NCBI GenBank assembly: GCA_017427265.1
Contig: JAFRTG010000030.1
Span: 1-64,000 of the forward strand
Direction of reading: 5' to 3'
DNA from: Oscillospiraceae bacterium
GTDB lineage: Bacteria > Bacillota > Clostridia > Oscillospirales > Ruminococcaceae
DNA: 64,000 nt
In this document: positions 4,491-52,675 of the stretch, one piece after another
How positions within the stretch are numbered: the stretch's first letter is position 1
How the letters are laid out: each line of letters begins with the position of its first letter
Notes under the pieces: generated by a model
Databases searched by the model: none
What the model was told of the DNA's origin: nothing
Seen by the model: the letters and a program-made list of their open reading frames with translations, nothing else
Program-made: the position numbers and the translations under genes

Positions 4491-5660
4491 TTATTTGTGA
4501 TGCTTGCTGAGGAAGTGCTCCATGCGGTCGGCCGCCTCTGCCAGATGCTTCAGCGAATACGCATAGGAAATGCGGATATTGTTCTTGCCGCACGCACCGA
4601 ATGCCGAGCCCGGTACGACGGCGACGCGCTCCTCCTGCAGCAGCTGCTCGCAGAAGCTCTCGCTGTCCATGCCGCTGGATTCGATGCTCGGGAACAGATA
4701 GAATGCGCCCTGCGCCGGGAAACATCGCAGTCCCATCTGCGAAAAGCGCTCCAGCAGGAAGCGGCGGCGGCGGTCATATTCCGCGATCATGTCAGCGCAG
4801 TCGCTTTCGCAGTGTTTCAGCGCCTCAATGGCCGCACGCTGACTGACCATCGGTGCACACATGATGCCGTACTGATGAATCTTGCGTGCCTCCGCGATGA
4901 TTTCGGGCGGAGCAGCCATCCAGCCGAGACGCCAGCCGGTCATGGCAAAGGTCTTGGAAAAACCGTTGACCACAATCGTCCGCTCACGCATTCCTTCAAA
5001 GCCTGCAATGGAAACATGCTTCGTGCCGTAGGTCATCTCAGAATAAATCTCATCCGAGAGCACGAAAATATCGGTATCCCGGAGCAGCGCCGTGATTTCC
5101 TCATAGTCCTCGCGCCGCATGATCGCGCCCGTCGGGTTGTTCGGATACGACAGCACGAGCAGCTTGGTTTTCGGGGTGATTTTTTCTTTGAGCTCTGCGG
5201 CGGTCAGGCGGAATTCATTTTCCTCCTTCGTCGGCAGAGAGACCGGTACGCCGTCCGCCATCGAGACCAGCGGCGCATAGCAGACAAAGCACGGCTCGGT
5301 AATCAGCACCTCGTCGCCCGGATTGATGAGCGTCCGGAAGGTCAGGTCAACAGCCTCGGAGCCGCCGATCGTCACGAGCAGCTCGTTTTCCGGACAATAG
5401 GAGAGCTGATATTTCCGCTCCATGAAGCGGGAAATTTCCTGACGCAGCTGCAGCAAACCGGAATTTGCACCGTAAAAGATCGCCTGCCGTTCCAGCGTAT
5501 TGATCGCTGCGGAACGGATCGTCCACGGCGTGCGGAAATCCGGCTCACCGACGCCCAGCGAGATCACGCCTTCCATGTTCTCCGCCATATCGAAAAAGCG
5601 GCGGATCGGAGAAGGGGCAATGGCCTGTGCCCGCTGAGACATACGCTGTTGATAGTTCAC
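4491..5660 (-). CDS. Class I pyridoxal-phosphate aminotransferase
   Basis: This 389-residue fold-type I aminotransferase is close to the aspartate/aromatic (PatA/AspC-like) group. Visible marks are GVGEPDFRTP near residue 37, SYPNNPTG near 170, the SDEIYSEMTYG strand, and SKTFAMTGWRLG with the PLP-binding lysine near 235. It would move an amino group between an amino acid and 2-oxoglutarate in the cytosol. Substrate cannot be decided from the sequence. It overlaps the upstream Lrp-type regulator by four bases (ATGA), an arrangement common in Clostridia, so the regulator probably senses the amino acid handled by this enzyme. Confidence 0.9.
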   Translation of the reverse strand: MNYQQRMSQRAQAIAPSPIRRFFDMAENMEGVISLGVGEPDFRTPWTIRSAAINTLERQAIFYGANSGLLQLRQEISRFMERKYQLSYCPENELLVTIGGSEAVDLTFRTLINPGDEVLITEPCFVCYAPLVSMADGVPVSLPTKEENEFRLTAAELKEKITPKTKLLVLSYPNNPTGAIMRREDYEEITALLRDTDIFVLSDEIYSEMTYGTKHVSIAGFEGMRERTIVVNGFSKTFAMTGWRLGWMAAPPEIIAEARKIHQYGIMCAPMVSQRAAIEALKHCESDCADMIAEYDRRRRFLLERFSQMGLRCFPAQGAFYLFPSIESSGMDSESFCEQLLQEERVAVVPGSAFGACGKNNIRISYAYSLKHLAEAADRMEHFLSKHHK

Positions 5661-28352: not shown

Positions 28353-29534
28353 TTATTCCAGATACAAAGCGCCGCGATAATCACTGACAGGTTCCGGAAC
28401 TGTCTGGATAAATCTGCATTTCGGGAATGCTGAACAGCCATAGAACTGTTTTCCGGCATTCGCGCCTTTATTGGCGGTTCGCAGAACCATTGCGGCGCCG
28501 CAGCGCGGGCACTGCATACCGGTTTGTATCGGCGGCTGGGGTTGAGGCTCCGGTATGCATTTTTCCGTAGCAACCGGTGCAGGAACAGGTTCCGGTTTGC
28601 ATTCCGGAACAGGTTTTGCTGCCGGTTCTTCTGCGTTTACAAAATATCTGCATTTTGGAAATGATGAGCAGCCGTAGAATTGTTTTCCGGTATTTTCGCC
28701 CTTTTTGGCAATTCGCAAAACCAGTGCTGCGCCGCAGCGCGGGCATTTTCTTTGCGATTCTTCCGGTTTGGCGGGTTGAGGTTCCGGCTCCGTTTCAGCC
28801 GGGACGGGTTGCACGGTCTGCGGCGGTTCGGGAGGAAGCGGCTGCTCAGGCGGAAGTGCGCTTGCCGGTTGTGTCTGTACAGCAGGTTGTTCCGGCGCTC
28901 TCTTGCGGCTTCCGTATGCATTCTGTATCCGGTCGATATGCGCCTGCTTCAGTGCATCGTCGGCGTTTTGCAGAACGGAAAGACTGTCATAAATGCTTTT
29001 CACCTGTTCTTCCGTCAGTGCGTCCGGATGCCGCTTCCATATGGAACGGATCGTGAGAAACATCTCATCCCGATGAATGATTTTGCAGTTTTCATCATAA
29101 AAGGTCAGCTTTTTCAGCTCGCACCGCTCAGAAAAAACAATCAGAGAAAAGCAGGGAAGGCTTTCGTCTTGCAGAAATGCTTTCAGCCATTTGATATGCC
29201 CGCGGTTCTGCCAGATCGGATTGAAAAACTGATGCTTGGTTCTGTCGGGCATGGACTGTGTCCAGTAACGTCCGCTTTCCGAACCGAAAATCCAGCCGGA
29301 ATAGTTTTTGCTTTCAATGATGAATAAGCCTTTTTGTGTGATGTAAATCAGGTCAATTTCCGTTGTTTCTCCGATTTCAGCGGGAATATAGACATTCCGA
29401 AGCAGCATTCCGCTGTAGCCGAACAGTTTTGTCCATTTCAGCTTACGGGCAGTCAGATCCTCGCCGTATTTTCCGAGTAGATCGCTGTCGTCATCATTAA
29501 GCAGAAAAAACCTGATCCGTTCGCCAAAATTCAT
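28353..29534 (-). CDS. NERD-domain protein with two topoisomerase-type zinc ribbons
   Basis: This 393-residue protein has a NERD nuclease-related domain (about 22-130). TEIDLIYITQKGLFIIESKN gives the D and E-x-K of the PD-(D/E)XK fold. A Pro/Gln/Glu-rich linker with two CPRCGAA-type zinc ribbons follows, at about 268-310 and 345-385, each CPRC...FYGCSxFPKC. NERD proteins with such ribbons probably act on DNA. Start M at 29534 has GGGAGG just upstream. The gene separates gatA from gatB and is less GC-biased than they are, suggesting insertion. Confidence 0.88.
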   Translation of the reverse strand: MNFGERIRFFLLNDDDSDLLGKYGEDLTARKLKWTKLFGYSGMLLRNVYIPAEIGETTEIDLIYITQKGLFIIESKNYSGWIFGSESGRYWTQSMPDRTKHQFFNPIWQNRGHIKWLKAFLQDESLPCFSLIVFSERCELKKLTFYDENCKIIHRDEMFLTIRSIWKRHPDALTEEQVKSIYDSLSVLQNADDALKQAHIDRIQNAYGSRKRAPEQPAVQTQPASALPPEQPLPPEPPQTVQPVPAETEPEPQPAKPEESQRKCPRCGAALVLRIAKKGENTGKQFYGCSSFPKCRYFVNAEEPAAKPVPECKPEPVPAPVATEKCIPEPQPQPPIQTGMQCPRCGAAMVLRTANKGANAGKQFYGCSAFPKCRFIQTVPEPVSDYRGALYLE

Positions 29535-29562
29535 GTTGTCCTCCCTTGAACTCTGTTTCAAA

Positions 29563-29640
29563 CCGGGATTCCAAAGGGATACCATCCCTTTGGCGGGAGT
29601 TTGAGGGCGGAGCCCTCTTTATCAATCAAATACCGCTCTC
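29563..29640 (+). repeat. Dispersed intergenic repeat, copy 3 (right module)
   Basis: CCGGGATTCCAAAGGG with a CCAAAGGG/CCCTTTGG hairpin is followed by GGCGGGAGTTTGAGGGCGGA and an end reading ATACCGCTCTC. The end runs into the 3' end of gatA, whose last three codons and stop (SGI, TGA at 29626-29628) lie in the element. Confidence 0.75.
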
Positions 29641-31439: not shown

Positions 31440-31467
31440 TGGGCGGGCGAAAAAATCGCGGGAACAG

Positions 31468-31686
31468 CTATTTTTCCGCCATGTGCATGATGTTGGTTCT
31501 GCCGAGAATGTAATCTACAGACACCCCGTAGAAATCCGCAAGAATCAGGAGATGTTCTACGGGAATTGTCTGATAGCCGCGTTCATAGCGGGAGTAAACA
31601 GTCTGGCTTGTGTGGAGCAGTTCGGCAATCTGTGTCTGGTTCATGTCCTTGTCCTCGCGCAGATCGCGCAGTCTTTGAAAATACAC
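31468..31686 (-). CDS. XRE-family helix-turn-helix repressor (module 1)
   Basis: This 72-residue single-domain DNA-binding protein has the HTH in MNQTQIAELLHTSQTVYSRY (about residues 14-33). A LADFYGVSVDYILGRTN end follows, typical of small XRE repressors. A GTG start at 31686 is chosen because GGAGG is nine bases upstream. It is divergent from the gene at 31865, and the 178-base gap carries two identical palindromes (TAGTAC-N6-GTACTA). Autoregulation plus repression of the divergent operon is the natural reading but is inference. Confidence 0.88.
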   Translation of the reverse strand: MYFQRLRDLREDKDMNQTQIAELLHTSQTVYSRYERGYQTIPVEHLLILADFYGVSVDYILGRTNIMHMAEK

Positions 31687-31728
31687 AAAAACACACCTCC
31701 GGCTTTGTTGCATTGACCGAAAATCATA

Positions 31729-31746
31729 TAGTACTGTTCGGTACTA
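31729..31746. promoter_or_regulatory. Operator 1 of the XRE module: TAGTAC-N6-GTACTA
   Basis: A perfect 6-6-6 palindrome (spacer TGTTCG) directly abuts the -35 of the plus-strand promoter and, on the other side, a possible minus-strand -10 (TATGAT, complement of 31723-31728) of the repressor gene. Binding here could shut both promoters. Confidence 0.75.
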
Positions 31747-31775
31747 TTGACTTTAGCATATTTTTGTGCTATACT
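31747..31775 (+). promoter_or_regulatory. SigA-type promoter of the PD-(D/E)XK-like operon
   Basis: TTGACT, a 17-base spacer and TATACT lie between the two palindromic operators, about 90 bases upstream of the start at 31865. Confidence 0.8.
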
Positions 31776-31783
31776 TTCTATAT

Positions 31784-31801
31784 TAGTACTTTTAAGTACT
31801 A
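31784..31801. promoter_or_regulatory. Operator 2 of the XRE module: TAGTAC-N6-GTACTA
   Basis: A second perfect palindrome with the same half-sites (spacer TTTTAA) lies just after the -10, over the expected transcription start. The two operator centres are 55 bases apart. Confidence 0.75.
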
Positions 31802-31864
31802 GACAATCAATGGAATGTGTTTTTCAAGCTGACATGAGAGAAAAACAGAAAAGGAGGTCTTATA

Positions 31865-32701
31865 ATGAACAATGTAACAGATCGGATTAAACAGGTCAAG
31901 CAGCCTTACGGCGGATATTTGAAGGTATCTGATTTCAGAGTTATAATGCTGGATGACGGAATTACACTGAATGAAGATGAGAATATACACGGTTCCATAG
32001 TCGGTTTGGTCGTTGATTATATGACCAGATTCCTGATTGGTTCAGACGTACAGGATGCTTTTGTGATTTCGATGAAGGGCGCAATCAAAGCAGAGGAAAT
32101 GGGAATAGAAGGCTCTGTTGAGAAGGGAAAAGAGCTTCTGCGCGGAATCACCGGGACGGATGCTGCTTCTGTTGTGAATGCCTGCAAGCTCGCAGGGTTT
32201 GATGTGTGGTACAGAAATCCGCGGAATGCATTGCGGGCAGCCGGATATGAAATCAATCCGGACGAAGCAACGGTGCAGAATATTCAAACGCTCCTGAACC
32301 GATGCCGGACATTTTTTGAAAAATACGGGCCGGTAACTGCATCCGGTTTTACATTTGAACCTGAAAATGCGGAATTTGATAAATGGATTGAGATGTGCCG
32401 GTCGGGCAAAGGAACCTTCGGCGGCTATACGCCCACGGTCTGTACCGGAGACGGAGATTATCTGACAGCGGATACCCTTTGGGACATGAAGGTCATCAAG
32501 TCGAGAATCACAAGCAAGGAAACATTGCAGCTGCTGATGTACTGGATTATGGGACAGCATTCGGGGCGTGACCTGTTCAAAGGGATTACCAGACTGGGGG
32601 TCTTTAATCCAAGATACAATCAGGTGTATCTGTATGATATGCATGACATTCCGGCGGAGACCGTCCGGGCAGTTGAAAGAGATGTCATTTGTTATGACTG
32701 A
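31865..32701 (+). CDS. Uncharacterised protein with PD-(D/E)XK (RecB/Cas4-like) motifs
   Basis: This 278-residue cytosolic protein belongs to no family I can name. Its C-terminal half shows the ordered motifs of RecB/Cas4-type nucleases. These are GDGD (D196/D198), then D207-M-K209 in LWDMKVIKS, then Q222-LLM-Y226 (QxxxY). After these comes a conserved-looking GITRLGVFNPRYNQVYLYD. The N-terminal half (1-150) is helical and unassigned. AGGAGG lies before the ATG. It is transcribed from an operator-flanked promoter divergent from the XRE gene and is followed 13 bases later by a secreted dockerin-bearing protein. Base composition is more AT-rich than the neighbours. Nuclease activity is inference. 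Confidence 0.65.
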   Translation: MNNVTDRIKQVKQPYGGYLKVSDFRVIMLDDGITLNEDENIHGSIVGLVVDYMTRFLIGSDVQDAFVISMKGAIKAEEMGIEGSVEKGKELLRGITGTDAASVVNACKLAGFDVWYRNPRNALRAAGYEINPDEATVQNIQTLLNRCRTFFEKYGPVTASGFTFEPENAEFDKWIEMCRSGKGTFGGYTPTVCTGDGDYLTADTLWDMKVIKSRITSKETLQLLMYWIMGQHSGRDLFKGITRLGVFNPRYNQVYLYDMHDIPAETVRAVERDVICYD

Positions 32702-32714
32702 AAGGAATGATGAT

Positions 32715-33476
32715 ATGAAGCGTTTATTCGGAGTGACTGTCCTGCTCGCTGTATATATTGCGGCATGTACGGTTGCGGTACCCGCTTCTGAGCCGGTCAG
32801 TGCCGCCGGTGAGACGGGCTCTGTAATTCTCGAAAGTGCAGAAGAAAAGGTAATCTTCAGAAAATCCTTTGAGCATAAACCGCCTGTTGTGGTGCGGGAG
32901 GATAAGTGGAATTTTATGACAACCGTGCTGGCGTATGATACCGGTCATATTCAGATTAAGGTTTCCTGTGTGCAGAGCGATGTATTTGACTGCAATGAGA
33001 TCGGCAAAATTTCGTTTGACGATTCCCTTATCCAGTCCGTTGGAGAGAAATCAGTGTATAAAGTCGTGGAGACAGGTGTAAATGTCGTTACGTCATTTGA
33101 CAATGAAAATGTAATCTATACGGTTGTATATCCTAACGGAAAAAGTAGTCTCGGCGGAAAAGAGTTCATCACATTTGATTTTTATGCAACGGAAGCCGGT
33201 ATGAAAACCAGCCCTGTTATCAGTGTGATGGGAGAAGAAATTGTGATTCCGTTTTCTGAAAAAATGCCGGAAGAAAATTTGCAGGAACAAATAGCTGCCT
33301 TAAAATCGCAAGCAGAATCATTACAGGCAGAGAACCAGAAACTGAAATCGGAGAATTATGATTTGCTGCACAGGAAACCCGATCCGGATTATAACGGAGA
33401 CGGCCTTGTAACAATCGGTGATGCAGTTTGGCTGCTGCGCTTTATTTCTGAGGATCCCACATTGCAAGTCAGTTAA
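32715..33476 (+). CDS. Secreted protein with coiled coil and a single dockerin repeat
   Basis: This 253-residue protein has a signal peptide (about 1-30, KRLFGVTVLLAVYIAACTVA then an AxA-like site). A beta-rich domain of unknown type (about 35-180) is followed by a leucine-zipper-like coiled coil (about 185-220, LQEQIAALKSQAESLQAENQ). One dockerin F-hand (DYNGDGLVTIGDAVWLLRF) ends the protein. Classical type I dockerins have two such repeats. AAAGGA lies eight bases before the ATG at 32715. It follows the PD-(D/E)XK-like gene by 13 bases and is probably co-transcribed with it. Confidence 0.75.
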   Translation: MKRLFGVTVLLAVYIAACTVAVPASEPVSAAGETGSVILESAEEKVIFRKSFEHKPPVVVREDKWNFMTTVLAYDTGHIQIKVSCVQSDVFDCNEIGKISFDDSLIQSVGEKSVYKVVETGVNVVTSFDNENVIYTVVYPNGKSSLGGKEFITFDFYATEAGMKTSPVISVMGEEIVIPFSEKMPEENLQEQIAALKSQAESLQAENQKLKSENYDLLHRKPDPDYNGDGLVTIGDAVWLLRFISEDPTLQVS

Positions 33477-33516
33477 AAAAATACCGCCCGTGCAGATTGT
33501 TCTCTGCACGGGCGGT
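33475..33516 (-). terminator. Terminator after cysS
   Basis: ACCGCCCGTGCAG pairs with CTGCACGGGCGGT (33483-33495 with 33504-33516). On the minus strand it is followed by a run of seven T, so it ends cysS transcription. It may also slow transcripts from the plus strand. Confidence 0.8.
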
Positions 33517-33533
33517 TGTATGATCGGATAAAA

Positions 33534-33600
33534 GCGGGATTCCAAAGAGTTACGACCCTTTGGCGGAGCCTCATGAAAAAACCACCGGAGATACCGCTCT
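33534..33600 (+). repeat. Dispersed intergenic repeat, copy 4 (right module)
   Basis: It begins GCGGGATTCCAAAGAGTTACG and ends CACCGGAGATACCGCTCTC. The CysS stop codon abuts the end, as gatA does at copy 3. The hairpin is imperfect here (CCAAAGAG). Confidence 0.75.
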
Positions 33601-35009
33601 CACGCCTTGGTGATCTCAGTGCCCTGACGGGTCTCGCGGATCTGCCAGCCGAGCGCGGTGATCTGGTCACGGATTGCGTCCGCCTTTGCAAAATCCTTGG
33701 CCTTGCGGGCTTCCTTGCGCTGCTCGACCAGTTCCAGCACCTCTGCCGGGATCTCAGCAGATTCGTTCTCCTCTGCGAGCGCCTTTGCATTGGCAATCAG
33801 GTCAAGCGAGAGCACGCGGTCCATCTGCTCAATGCAGGCGAGCTTGGTTGCAGCGGTCGTGTCCGCCTTGAGGACGTCGTACAGCACGGTGATGGCCTGC
33901 GCGGTGTTGAGATCGTTGTCCATCGTCTCCGTGAATGCGGCAAGCAGCTCGGACTTTTTCGCTTCGTCAACCGCATCGTTCTGATCGAGCAGTGTGCGGA
34001 TCTTTGCGAGCAGCTTCTGATAAGCGCCCTGTGCGTTATCGAGGTTTTCCCACGTAAACACGAGCGATTTGCGATAGTGCGACTGCAGGCAGAAGAAGCG
34101 GTAGGCCATCGGCAGATAGCCCTTTTCTTCCAGCAGGGATACCGTGAGGAATTCACCCTTGGATTTGCTCATCTTGCCGCTGCTGGTGTTCAGATGCAGC
34201 ACATGGAACCAGTGCTTGCACCATTCGTGGCCGATCAGCGCCTCGCTCTGCGCGATTTCGTTGGTGTGATGCGGGAAGACATTGTCGATGCCGCCGCAGT
34301 GCAGGTCGAGCGTTTCGCCCGCATATTTCATGCTGATGCAGGAGCACTCGATGTGCCAGCCCGGATAGCCGAGACCCCACGGGCTCTCCCACTTCAGCTC
34401 CTGATCGTCAAACTTGGATTTGGTGAACCAGAGCACGAAATCAGCCTTGTTGCGCTTGTTTGCGTCGCCCTCGACGCCTTCGCGGACGCCGACCTCCAGA
34501 TCCTCCTCCTTGAAGTCGTGGAAGCGGTAATACTGCTCCAGCTTCGAGGTATCGAAGTAGACGTTTCCGCCGGCCTCATAGGCATAGCCCTTGTCGAGCA
34601 GCTTCTGCACGGCGCCGATAAATTCCGGAATGCAGCCGGTTGCAGGCTGAACGATCTCCGGCGTTTTGATGTTGAGCTTTTTGCAGTCCTCAAAGAATGC
34701 ATCTGTGTAGAACTTTGCGATTTCCATGACGGTCTTATGCTCGCGCTTTGCGCCCTTGAGCATTTTGTCGTCGCCGGTATCGCCGTCGGAGGTCAGATGT
34801 CCGACATCCGTGATGTTCATGATGCGAAGCACATCATAGCCTGCAAAGCGCAGATACTTGTCAAGGATATCCTCCATGATGTAGGTGCGCAGGTTGCCGA
34901 TGTGAGCAAAGTGATAGACAGTCGGGCCGCAGGTATACATTTTGACCTTGCCGGGCTCGGCCGTCGTGAATGTTTCTTTTTTTCTGGAAAGAGAATTGTA
35001 CAGCAGCAT
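33600..35009 (-). CDS. cysS: Cysteinyl-tRNA synthetase
   Basis: This 469-residue class I synthetase has the zinc and cysteine site in YTCGPTVYHFAHIGNLRTYI. It also has the HIGH-type HIGN near residue 36, the GLGYPGWHIECSCIS zinc ligands, and KMSKSKGEF near residue 265. A C-terminal DALR-like helical region ends in RETRQGTEI. GGGAG precedes the ATG. A promoter lies just upstream with a leader too short for a T-box, so T-box control is not expected. Confidence 0.96.
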   Translation of the reverse strand: MLLYNSLSRKKETFTTAEPGKVKMYTCGPTVYHFAHIGNLRTYIMEDILDKYLRFAGYDVLRIMNITDVGHLTSDGDTGDDKMLKGAKREHKTVMEIAKFYTDAFFEDCKKLNIKTPEIVQPATGCIPEFIGAVQKLLDKGYAYEAGGNVYFDTSKLEQYYRFHDFKEEDLEVGVREGVEGDANKRNKADFVLWFTKSKFDDQELKWESPWGLGYPGWHIECSCISMKYAGETLDLHCGGIDNVFPHHTNEIAQSEALIGHEWCKHWFHVLHLNTSSGKMSKSKGEFLTVSLLEEKGYLPMAYRFFCLQSHYRKSLVFTWENLDNAQGAYQKLLAKIRTLLDQNDAVDEAKKSELLAAFTETMDNDLNTAQAITVLYDVLKADTTAATKLACIEQMDRVLSLDLIANAKALAEENESAEIPAEVLELVEQRKEARKAKDFAKADAIRDQITALGWQIRETRQGTEITKA

Positions 35010-50061: not shown

Positions 50062-52053
50062 TCAGTTTTTATATTCGGCCGGAATTTTAATCAGATGGCG
50101 AGATTTGTAATAGGTAGTATAAACGGTATCATAGTTTTCGCTTTTTATGAAGAAAATATAATATGCCTCTGCGAAATACATTGAATAGCCGTCAACATTA
50201 GACATATTTGTTCCGTTTTGTGCTCCGCCTTGCTGTTCGCCAGGATGGATAACAGTTGCTGCATTTACCTCATCAACAGTGAATGTCCATTCATTGTGAT
50301 GTTCACCATAAGCTGAAGACAAACCGTTTTCGTCAAAATTGCCGTTCACACTATAATTTCGATATTGACGACGCCATGGATTGAGAGCAGCAGTACAATA
50401 TGCTTCCATATTGTAGCTCACAAGCACCTGAGAACCACGATCTTCTTTTTCGACCTGAACCGTGTCAGAAGCATCTATCTTAGTCGTAGACCAATCCGAC
50501 CAGTCAGACCATGTTTCGGTATAAGCTGTTTTGACATTCACCTTGCAGGAGACGCTTGTGCCGTTTGCACTTGCAGTAATTGTTGCGGTTCCGTCCTTCT
50601 GAGCGGTGACAAGTCCTGCTTTGACGCTTGCGACTGTTGCGTTTGAGGAACTCCAGACAACATCATCCGGGAAAGGATACGAACAGATCAGCTGAAAGGT
50701 CTTGCTTGTGCCTTCAGTATTCAGCGTCAGAGAATACTTGTTCAGTATGATAATAATGCCGCGCTCAGTCAGAATTTTTCGTTTCAGCATCGAATAATCA
50801 ACAGCATTCAGTTTGCCGTCGCCGTTCAAGTCAGCAGCCTTTGCATCCTTCAGAGTTGTTTGCGGAGCAGTCAGCAGCCAGTTCTTCAGCAGCGTCAGAT
50901 CGGTTTCATCAACCTCGCTGTCTGCGTTGATGTCGCCCGGAACAGAGATCTGTTCCCAGCGTGCATAAAGCATGACCTTTGCGCTTCCGTTTACGATATC
51001 GGGATAAATATCATTGGCAGTTAGCGCAGTGTCGTCCTGATCGAAGATGGTTCCACTGTCTTTGGCAAGGCTCCAGCCGAGGAAGCGGTATCCGGTTTTT
51101 GTCAGCTTGAATGAACTAGCGTTTGTCAAACCGTATTCCGGACTGCCGCTGCCGTTGTTCCAGATGGTAGCATAGACTTTTCCGCTGGATTTGACAAGGA
51201 TCGTGCCGTCATCGCTTGCCTTGTAATCGGCCTCCTCTGCGATCGTACCGCCGTTCGTGTTATAGTTGATCGTGAGCTGCTTGGGCGGTTCTTTGACAGT
51301 GAAGGATACATTGTCGCTGAACGTGTAGTTTCCGTTTGCATTTACAGAGGCTACATTTGCATAATAGCTGCCCGATGCGAGAGAATAGGAATAGGAAAGC
51401 CCGCTGATCCTGTATTCTACTGCAATATTCGTTCCGTCCGGATTGCAGATATAAACATCATACCAGTCAGCGTTATCACATGCATTCCATGAAAATCCGA
51501 CCGGTGAAGCGCTTGTATTGGCCGAGACGGAAAGTGTGGGCTTGGAGGGAACGACGGGGGCGGGTGGAGAATAGCGTAAAACACCATCCCATGATACGCC
51601 CCCGGCATTATTCCAGAAATTCTCTCTGATAATACCGTCATCGTCGTTTGCTGCTGCAACACATTTACCTCCGCCCAAATAAAATTCCGTGTGAGCGGAT
51701 TCATCTAGCAAAATGTCACCTCTTTGGAGATTGGAGGAGTTTCCGATATTGCTCCACGAAATCCATTGAAAACCGATGCCAGTAAGTACACCTCTCATAT
51801 TGCGGGTGTTGAATGCTGAATTACCGACATCAAATCCACCGGCTTTCAATGCATAAAAAACAAAGGAAGAGCAATCATAATCCGGTCCGTTTCGATTGGA
51901 CTGGCTGTACCAGTGACTGTTATCATCCGCAATTGCAAGCGCCCATTCCAAAGCGGCTTCGATATTTCCGGCAGCCTGTGCTCTTATTGGTACAGGCAAC
52001 AGAAAGCAACAGCACATCATCAAAGACAAGCAAAGCGAGACTAATTTTTTCAT
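50062..52053 (-). CDS. Secreted peptidoglycan amidase-like protein with an internal dockerin
   Basis: This 663-residue protein has a signal peptide (about 1-28, ending RAQAAG). A phage-type NlpC/P60-like cell-wall hydrolase domain follows (about 30-165) with catalytic C61 in DYDCSSF and H121 in ESAHTEF. Next come a fibronectin-like domain (about 172-258), an InlB-B-type repeat (about 262-376, YNTNGGTI and FLGWSLAKDSG) and a two-repeat dockerin (about 381-428). A Big2-like domain (about 440-512) and an unassigned end rich in W and Y complete it. A dockerin in mid-protein is unusual. The region is AT-richer than its neighbours. It diverges from the XRE gene at 52313. Confidence 0.85.
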   Translation of the reverse strand: MKKLVSLCLSLMMCCCFLLPVPIRAQAAGNIEAALEWALAIADDNSHWYSQSNRNGPDYDCSSFVFYALKAGGFDVGNSAFNTRNMRGVLTGIGFQWISWSNIGNSSNLQRGDILLDESAHTEFYLGGGKCVAAANDDDGIIRENFWNNAGGVSWDGVLRYSPPAPVVPSKPTLSVSANTSASPVGFSWNACDNADWYDVYICNPDGTNIAVEYRISGLSYSYSLASGSYYANVASVNANGNYTFSDNVSFTVKEPPKQLTINYNTNGGTIAEEADYKASDDGTILVKSSGKVYATIWNNGSGSPEYGLTNASSFKLTKTGYRFLGWSLAKDSGTIFDQDDTALTANDIYPDIVNGSAKVMLYARWEQISVPGDINADSEVDETDLTLLKNWLLTAPQTTLKDAKAADLNGDGKLNAVDYSMLKRKILTERGIIIILNKYSLTLNTEGTSKTFQLICSYPFPDDVVWSSSNATVASVKAGLVTAQKDGTATITASANGTSVSCKVNVKTAYTETWSDWSDWSTTKIDASDTVQVEKEDRGSQVLVSYNMEAYCTAALNPWRRQYRNYSVNGNFDENGLSSAYGEHHNEWTFTVDEVNAATVIHPGEQQGGAQNGTNMSNVDGYSMYFAEAYYIFFIKSENYDTVYTTYYKSRHLIKIPAEYKN

Positions 52054-52173
52054 AACAAACCTCCTGTTCTTCGGTTGCTGTATTGTGAAACATTATGCTG
52101 CATACGGTATAAGGGGAGCGGATTTTTGCATTAGAGCGGGAATCCGGACACCGTATGAGATACAGCTTCAAAA

Positions 52174-52189
52174 TACAACGAATCGTGTA
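52174..52189. promoter_or_regulatory. Putative operator A of XRE module 2
   Basis: TACAACGAATCGTGTA, an imperfect palindrome, lies downstream of the minus-strand promoter in the leader of the amidase gene. It matches the inverse of operator B. Confidence 0.55.
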
Positions 52190-52222
52190 TAACAAAAACA
52201 TCATTCGACGTTTTATAATTAT

Positions 52223-52251
52223 ATAATACACGAATTGTTGTAATTTGTCAA
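52223..52251 (-). promoter_or_regulatory. Promoter of the dockerin-amidase gene with embedded operator B
   Basis: On the minus strand a perfect TTGACA, a 17-base spacer and TATTAT are present. The spacer holds TACACGAATTGTTGTA (52227-52242), the inverse of operator A, so a bound repressor would block RNA polymerase. Confidence 0.75.
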
Positions 52252-52271
52252 TAGAATTCCGTGACATGTGG

Positions 52272-52317
52272 TATAATTTAGGCGCATTATATAAACGGAG
52301 GTACAACGAATTATGCA
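52272..52317 (+). promoter_or_regulatory. Promoter and operator C of the XRE gene
   Basis: An extended -10 (TGGTATAAT, -10 at 52272-52277) lies 36 bases before the start. A third operator-like word, TACAACGAATTATGCA (52302-52317), overlaps the start codon, just after GGAGG. Confidence 0.6.
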
Positions 52318-52675
52318 ACATTATCAACGAATACGGGATTTGCGGGAAGATGCCGATCTGACGCAGGAGGCGCTCTGCCGAAGACTGAATATGCATAAAA
52401 CGACCTATACCAATTATGAACAAGGAAAGCATACCGTTCCGCTTGATTTTGCCGTTGTACTCGCTGATTTTTATCAGGTCTCACTTGATTATCTGACCGG
52501 CCGCACGAGCTTTCCGCACGGAAGAGCCAATCCGGTGTTTTCAGAAGAACAGCTTCATGTTGCAGAACAGTATGCGCAGCTGAGCGAAAAAAACAAAGGC
52601 CGTCTGGAATACTATCTGGAAGAACTGCTGAAAAAGCAGGCAACAGAATCTGCATGCGGAAAAGATACAGAATAA
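52313..52675 (+). CDS. XRE-family helix-turn-helix regulator (module 2)
   Basis: This 120-residue regulator has an N-terminal HTH (about 4-60, LTQEALCRRLNMHKTTYTNY) ending in VLADFYQVSLDYLTGRTSF. A C-terminal helix pair (about 75-108, FSEEQLHVAEQYAQLSEKNK) probably serves dimerisation or ligand sensing. It resembles the repressor at 31468 in its RIRDLRED start and GRTS turn. GGAGG lies before the ATG. It diverges from the dockerin-amidase gene, and operator-like palindromes lie between them, so it likely represses that gene and itself. Confidence 0.88.
   Translation: MQHYQRIRDLREDADLTQEALCRRLNMHKTTYTNYEQGKHTVPLDFAVVLADFYQVSLDYLTGRTSFPHGRANPVFSEEQLHVAEQYAQLSEKNKGRLEYYLEELLKKQATESACGKDTE

Follow-up and report, generated by a model that had tools for sequence, protein, structure and literature searches.

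A probable XRE autorepressor switch with interchangeable cargo and its PDC-S61 nuclease in an Oscillospiraceae bacterium

Introduction

In an Oscillospiraceae genome, a small XRE-type repressor gene faces, across two palindromes with the same arms, an operon encoding a nuclease-like and a secreted protein. The question raised by this locus is whether repressor, nuclease and secreted protein belong together as one system, or whether the repressor and its operators form the lasting unit behind which other genes come and go. We pursued it in the window (the whole analysed stretch of 64,000 nucleotides) and by comparison with other genomes, plasmid records and viral sequences. The locus has gatC, gatA and cysS as neighbours (cysS: NCBIfam TIGR00435) and consists of the following parts:

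31468..31686, minus strand: XRE repressor gene, 72 aa; GTG start; HTH_3 match, E = 4.1e-15; orthologues in the genus
31729..31746: operator 1, TAGTAC-N6-GTACTA; abuts the -35 hexamer; alignable in 43 loci
31747..31775, plus strand: sigma-A promoter TTGACT-17-TATACT; sequence and geometry in 43 loci
31784..31801: operator 2, TAGTAC-N6-GTACTA; begins 8 bp past the -10 hexamer
31865..32701, plus strand: RecB-type PD-(D/E)XK nuclease of the candidate family PDC-S61, 278 aa; the cargo
32715..33476, plus strand: 253-aa protein, secreted or lipoprotein-like, with a coiled coil and a single dockerin-like repeat
33484..33515: G+C-rich hairpin between the nuclease operon and the convergent cysS; read from the sequence as a probable shared terminator

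Results

The longest ORF of the repressor gene (31468-31713) would encode 81 aa, and its start is best read as the GTG at 31686, with GGAGG upstream, which yields the 72-residue XRE repressor described in an earlier note on this DNA; the domain search with this protein gave nothing besides the HTH. The two operators, TAGTACTGTTCGGTACTA at 31729-31746 and TAGTACTTTTAAGTACTA at 31784-31801, have identical arms and different centres and enclose the sigma-A promoter between repressor and divergent operon. No further TAGTAC-N6-GTACTA site occurs in the 64 kb at up to one mismatch, and the highest palindrome count in 100 shuffles of the window was 0 at the same tolerance, so that the arrangement reported in the earlier note stands. 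Its description of the locus as AT-rich was right in direction and overstated in degree: GC amounts to 49% at 32001-34000, mildly lower than the 53-60% of most other window bins.

The first operon gene, for which the same note could name no family, does have one. Residues 1-277 of the 31865 protein align with positions 1-250 of the 253-position PADLOC model PDC-S61 (9.2e-99), and the model was matched by 36 of 36 aligned nuclease sequences; judged by this full-length match, the protein is a new member of an already known candidate family. The alignment of 36 comprises the window, 32 of 40 GTDB loci and L076, L119 and L120; omitted were L012 and L002 (an in-frame stop each), L017 (same DNA as G002, kept as L076) and the broken or partial L021, L033, L037, L040, L041 and L043, and L029 and L039 are near copies. 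PDC-S61, itself a single-gene candidate system, is named in a table for Streptococcus thermophilus ST55, with no assay of it described, to go by the available part of the source (PMC11514479).

The structure prediction, proposed earlier as a check, returned a RecB-type PD-(D/E)XK nuclease fold (pLDDT 94.3), with MGME1, AdnA, ACE1 and Dna2 among the best matches. The top 28 by Z, a ranking obtained by re-alignment of Foldseek's own candidates, were MGME1, AdnAB, ACE1, RecBCD, DinG, Dna2, AddAB, SSO0001, Cas4, EXO5 or lambda exonuclease. Relative to the RecB-type nucleases among them (MGME1, AdnA, Dna2, AddAB, ACE1, Cas4), the 31865 protein is 7-18% identical over these 28 rows and differs in having neither a helicase part nor the four conserved cysteines; Cas4's four iron-sulphur cysteines are absent, with only C107 and C276 reaching 90%. 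The motifs read from the sequence beforehand, GDGD (D196/D198), D207-M-K209 and Q222/Y226, are present as described: K209, Q222 and Y226 are invariant in the 36 sequences and D196, D198 and D207 are conserved to at least 90%, with replacements such as N198 in L031, E207 in L076 and N207 in L028. A candidate motif I histidine, H42, is frequent at less than 90%, and D51 reaches 90% (alignment columns only).

Other comparisons were less productive. Profile matching against nine Cas4 proteins from relatives, weak in itself (Neff 1.7, plus one single-residue junk row), gave nothing, and a search of solved structures by sequence yielded no nuclease and two weak chance matches. Foldseek against viral models gave five matches with E up to 0.001, namely giant-virus helicases and two "AP endonuclease family 2" proteins, followed at weaker E by phage PD-(D/E)XK nucleases. 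All 36 aligned sequences also match RTasPDDEXK, the PADLOC nuclease model of reverse-transcriptase defence (window residues 193-262); the window differs from such systems in that a look by eye through the ORFs of 24-42 kb showed no reverse transcriptase.

The second operon gene begins 14 bp past the last base of the nuclease stop codon. ORF 32715-33476 agrees with the earlier description of a secreted protein with a half-dockerin: by eye it has a signal-peptide-like start and a possible lipobox IAAC (residues 15-18), and the best matches to other proteins, at residues 222-250, fall in one dockerin-like repeat. As a conserved partner of the nuclease it was rejected. Matches in 13 of 119 other genomes are confined to residues 185-253, mostly to the repeat at 222-250; the gene was found at none of 42 other nuclease-homologue loci, and the sister locus has no ORF resembling it. 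The gene is best regarded as a passenger of this locus, and since this partner is not conserved, a three-part system of XRE, nuclease and secreted protein is unsupported. Of the defence- or toxin-type module suspected in the earlier note, the nuclease fold, the operator-controlled layout and a candidate defence gene thus stand, and the three-part composition does not.

The repressor and its twin operator, by comparison, recur widely. Two operators at a 55-bp period, with up to three mismatches, were found in 37 of 396 family genomes (22 of 126 genera), the reversed-pattern control giving 0; a survey of the order, which we take to be probably Oscillospirales, found them in 14 of 295 genomes, of which nine belong to three other families; the control again gave 0. 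We compared 43 loci, 37 chosen by the operator alone and six more from the window's genus, with G218 and others retained despite differing cargo or order. A homologous divergent XRE gene with an SRYERG motif is present at all 43, and likewise at the eight foreign loci examined (the ten foreign twin sites except those of G592 and the second one of G536). TTGAC directly past operator 1, the 17-bp spacer and the 8-bp gap between -10 and operator 2 are each found in 41/43 loci; the loci were oriented by their better TTGAC match, a choice biased towards this motif. Within the window's genus, nine of 30 genomes have XRE matches of at least 80% identity. Eight of the nine, namely the window's own genome and seven with orthologues 80-93% identical, carry both operators at a distance of 55 bp and with no more than one mismatch in either site; the XRE match of G004 is partial, and operators were not found there.

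The reverse test started from the protein and overlaps with the operator survey, many loci being common to both. Of 197 family genomes, 26 yielded a total of 27 XRE matches. A twin with four mismatches or fewer accompanies 16 of the 20 matches of at least 67% identity (window included), four of these close matches being without a 55-bp twin, and none of the seven matches of 63% identity or less; 20 unrelated control loci reached 10 to 12 mismatches at best. The operator sequence is therefore tied to this XRE protein rather than to a global regulator. A phage origin of the switch was rejected, as two exact patterns, searched with no mismatches, gave 0 IMG/VR contigs.

What lies behind operator 2 varies. 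In 29 of the 43 loci a cargo ORF starts within 63 bases of this operator, in 28 cases with a Shine-Dalgarno-like stretch; 14 loci (one at a contig edge) have no clear cargo start within this distance. By BLAST at 1e-3, with grouping and choice of cargo being ours, the 29 genes fall into 14 groups devoid of detectable similarity: zinc-ribbon plus small membrane proteins (8), 82-83 aa proteins (5), bPH/SHOCT-type proteins (3), a 125-aa membrane protein (2), PDC-S61 (2), two lipoprotein types (1 each) and seven singles. Pfam matches comprise TM2, bPH_2, SHOCT and zinc ribbons, with DUF4190 below the cut-off. The genus itself reflects this diversity, with PDC-S61 in G000 and G002, TM2 plus zinc ribbon in G006 and G026, a zinc ribbon in G027, a small protein whose zinc-finger matches are sub-threshold in G012, a protein ending in a sorting-signal-like tail (by eye) in G022 and none clear in G029. 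The 82-83 aa protein is also the cargo at seven of eight examined loci of other families (L191 4997-5245, L226-L232); one copy tested had no Pfam or NCBIfam match.

The XRE sequences group by genus overall, and the cargo varies. On a tree of 74 alignment columns, ten genus labels need 10 changes versus 21.7 in shuffles, 0 of 200 shuffles being as low; five of the ten genera form one group each and five do not, support for the window's genus being 61/70. Nine of the 43 loci have pth and mfd no more than 5 kb from the switch, with cargo that differs or is absent; seven of the nine read XRE, then cargo (if any), pth and mfd. Three loci of genus g101 have common downstream genes, with an 85-aa gene beside operator 2 in G139 and G231 and not in G350. 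The flanks examined in the window's genus have no common neighbours except for G000 and G002 (both beside gatC); cysS is near the switch in both G000 and G027, on different sides, and G003, G020, G024 and G025 align with the window as far as 31443-31454 and not past. From these flank and cargo comparisons we conclude that the cargo turns over and that the switch unit can also relocate.

The nuclease has a distribution of its own. It was found in three of 120 relatives and three of 297 family genomes (both counts include its own genome), at 40 GTDB genome loci and in 31 plasmid records, six viral contigs and one of 50,697 phage records. The co-occurrence of nuclease, XRE gene and operator, put forward earlier as a test by neighbourhood survey, holds for XRE and operator and is rare for the nuclease: a divergent XRE gene, of three types, lies directly upstream in four of the 40 GTDB loci (upstream DNA is lacking at three), and a TAGTAC pair beside it in one of 40, with the DNA of sister species G002. 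Within 4 kb of PDC-S61, XRE-type genes occur in six loci, four of these directly upstream, and no non-XRE family recurs in more than two GTDB loci in a listing that omits three near-duplicate locus pairs.

In R. flavefaciens (L036), a PDC-S61 gene is accompanied by a distant relative of the window's XRE (E 1e-18). Between the two lie palindromes with AGGAC/GTCCT arms (4824-4838 and 4959-4973), one of them directly past a TTGACA-17-TATAAT promoter; here, the operator may have changed in sequence without leaving its position at the promoter. Upstream of PDC-S61 in L028 and L031 lies a further XRE type, of 106 aa. Given these different XRE types, XRE repression of the nuclease may have more than one origin.

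Within the window, neither a restriction nor a CRISPR gene was seen adjoining the nuclease. Elsewhere, defence-type genes lie beside PDC-S61 in four of eight loci, picked by eye and with no background rate: a type I methylase (L006), type I restriction (L011), Cas3 and Cas5c (L020), and matches to MkoA, MkoC and PDC-S37 (L038). Among 12 of the 31 plasmid records inspected, methylase or restriction genes are annotated in five stretches (L158, L160, L166, L188, L189). One of them, from a Limosilactobacillus reuteri plasmid (L166, 673-3579), carries a DNA methylase, a small HTH gene and a divergent gene for a 569-aa protein with PDC-S61 similarity in its N-terminal part and a tail of about 315 aa that has no Pfam match, in a restriction-system-like layout.

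Discussion

We consider it probable, at roughly two in three, that the locus is a switch run by an autorepressor, that its cargo can be exchanged, and that inheritance of the switch mostly follows the genera. Each TAGTAC-N6-GTACTA site is probably bound by a dimer of the 72-aa XRE protein. As operator 2 begins 8 bp past the -10 hexamer, it should cover the expected transcription start of the cargo and block it, and operator 1, on the XRE side and abutting the -35 hexamer, should act on the start of the XRE gene itself; with the operators so placed, a single protein would hold down the XRE gene and the divergent cargo alike. The slot behind operator 2 has received new cargo repeatedly, and in the window's genome and one sister species it is filled by the PDC-S61 nuclease, seemingly under control of the switch. 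This putative nuclease most likely acts as a single-gene, anti-phage protein on DNA ends or single strands, and its level would have to be low in uninfected cells.

Alternatively, the switch might belong to an envelope or stress regulon serving mainly surface proteins, with the nuclease recently captured. Cargo with TM2, bPH_2, SHOCT or zinc-ribbon matches, sub-threshold DUF4190 or lipoprotein-like appearance (by eye) is indeed common, but 82-83 aa proteins with no membrane segment (by eye) occupy the slot in 5/43 and 7/8 foreign loci, and the nuclease has been kept in two species at 53% identity. We regard this alternative as doubtful.

It is unlikely that the locus represents a dedicated defence module of XRE plus nuclease, with XRE acting as the nuclease's control protein and the other cargo loci being secondary. 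Restriction-modification C proteins and other XRE autorepressors share with the window's switch a small XRE protein, two operators and an autoregulatory layout. The switch differs from C proteins by the divergent gene, the exact 55-bp twin around a sigma-A promoter and the change of cargo from species to species, and from restriction-modification systems with a C protein by having no adjacent methyltransferase, none of the three locus genes matching a methylase. Divergent XRE genes of three types beside PDC-S61 (window/G002; L036; L028 and L031) would fit such a module, as would methylase, HTH gene and divergent PDC-S61 fusion on the Limosilactobacillus plasmid. Yet XRE with twin operators precedes PDC-S61 in only two of 43 loci, and 36 of the 40 GTDB loci of PDC-S61 have no divergent XRE gene directly upstream (three of them no upstream DNA).

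A toxin-antitoxin type module, with XRE as antitoxin and the cargo as toxin, appears improbable to us despite the small XRE protein, the autoregulatory layout and a nuclease cargo that could be toxic: no cargo family is held in common, the 14 groups in 29 loci leaving no conserved toxin partner, the XRE protein has no part beyond the HTH, and the genes are divergent instead of forming one operon. FapR boxes of lipid metabolism, a reading we find hardly credible, were rejected on centre spacing and on the co-conservation of operator and XRE, inasmuch as the FapR palindrome, given as TTAGTACCAGATACTAA in the available part of the source (PMC5028935), has a similar half-site but is a 17-bp palindrome with a 3-bp centre versus the 6-bp centre here, a FapR-type site at two mismatches had one match in the genome versus 16 for the control, and the cargo is not lipid synthesis.

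Returning to the autorepressor switch with interchangeable cargo, the literature searched, which covered broader work on TAGTAC palindromes in part, held no account of a repressor with a TAGTAC operator, of an Oscillospiraceae XRE protein with a palindrome, or of TM2 divergent from XRE; a repressor slot with changing cargo is a variant undescribed in that literature. More tentatively, and as something possible rather than probable, the switch could be an order-wide plug-in expression slot, i.e. an autorepressor and twin-operator promoter inherited as a unit into which different defence or surface genes were inserted repeatedly, placing unrelated phage-facing proteins under one release signal. 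If so, a fixed repressor-promoter unit would mark where these bacteria place changeable genes, a search with the 73-bp signature would list cargo across many genomes and thereby new defence or surface proteins, the question of a common release signal would become directly testable, and a candidate defence nuclease would gain a predicted fold and a probable regulator.

Two further regions of the window may be mentioned. At 28353-29585 (minus strand), inside the gat cluster between gatA and gatB, lies a gene for a NERD-domain protein with two topoisomerase-type zinc ribbons; in the sister locus L076 this place spans only about 0.3 kb. A low-GC patch at 50062-52675 encodes a 663-aa protein that has no NCBIfam match and, by eye, a secretion signal and dockerin-like repeats; beside it stands a second XRE-like gene, of 120 aa.
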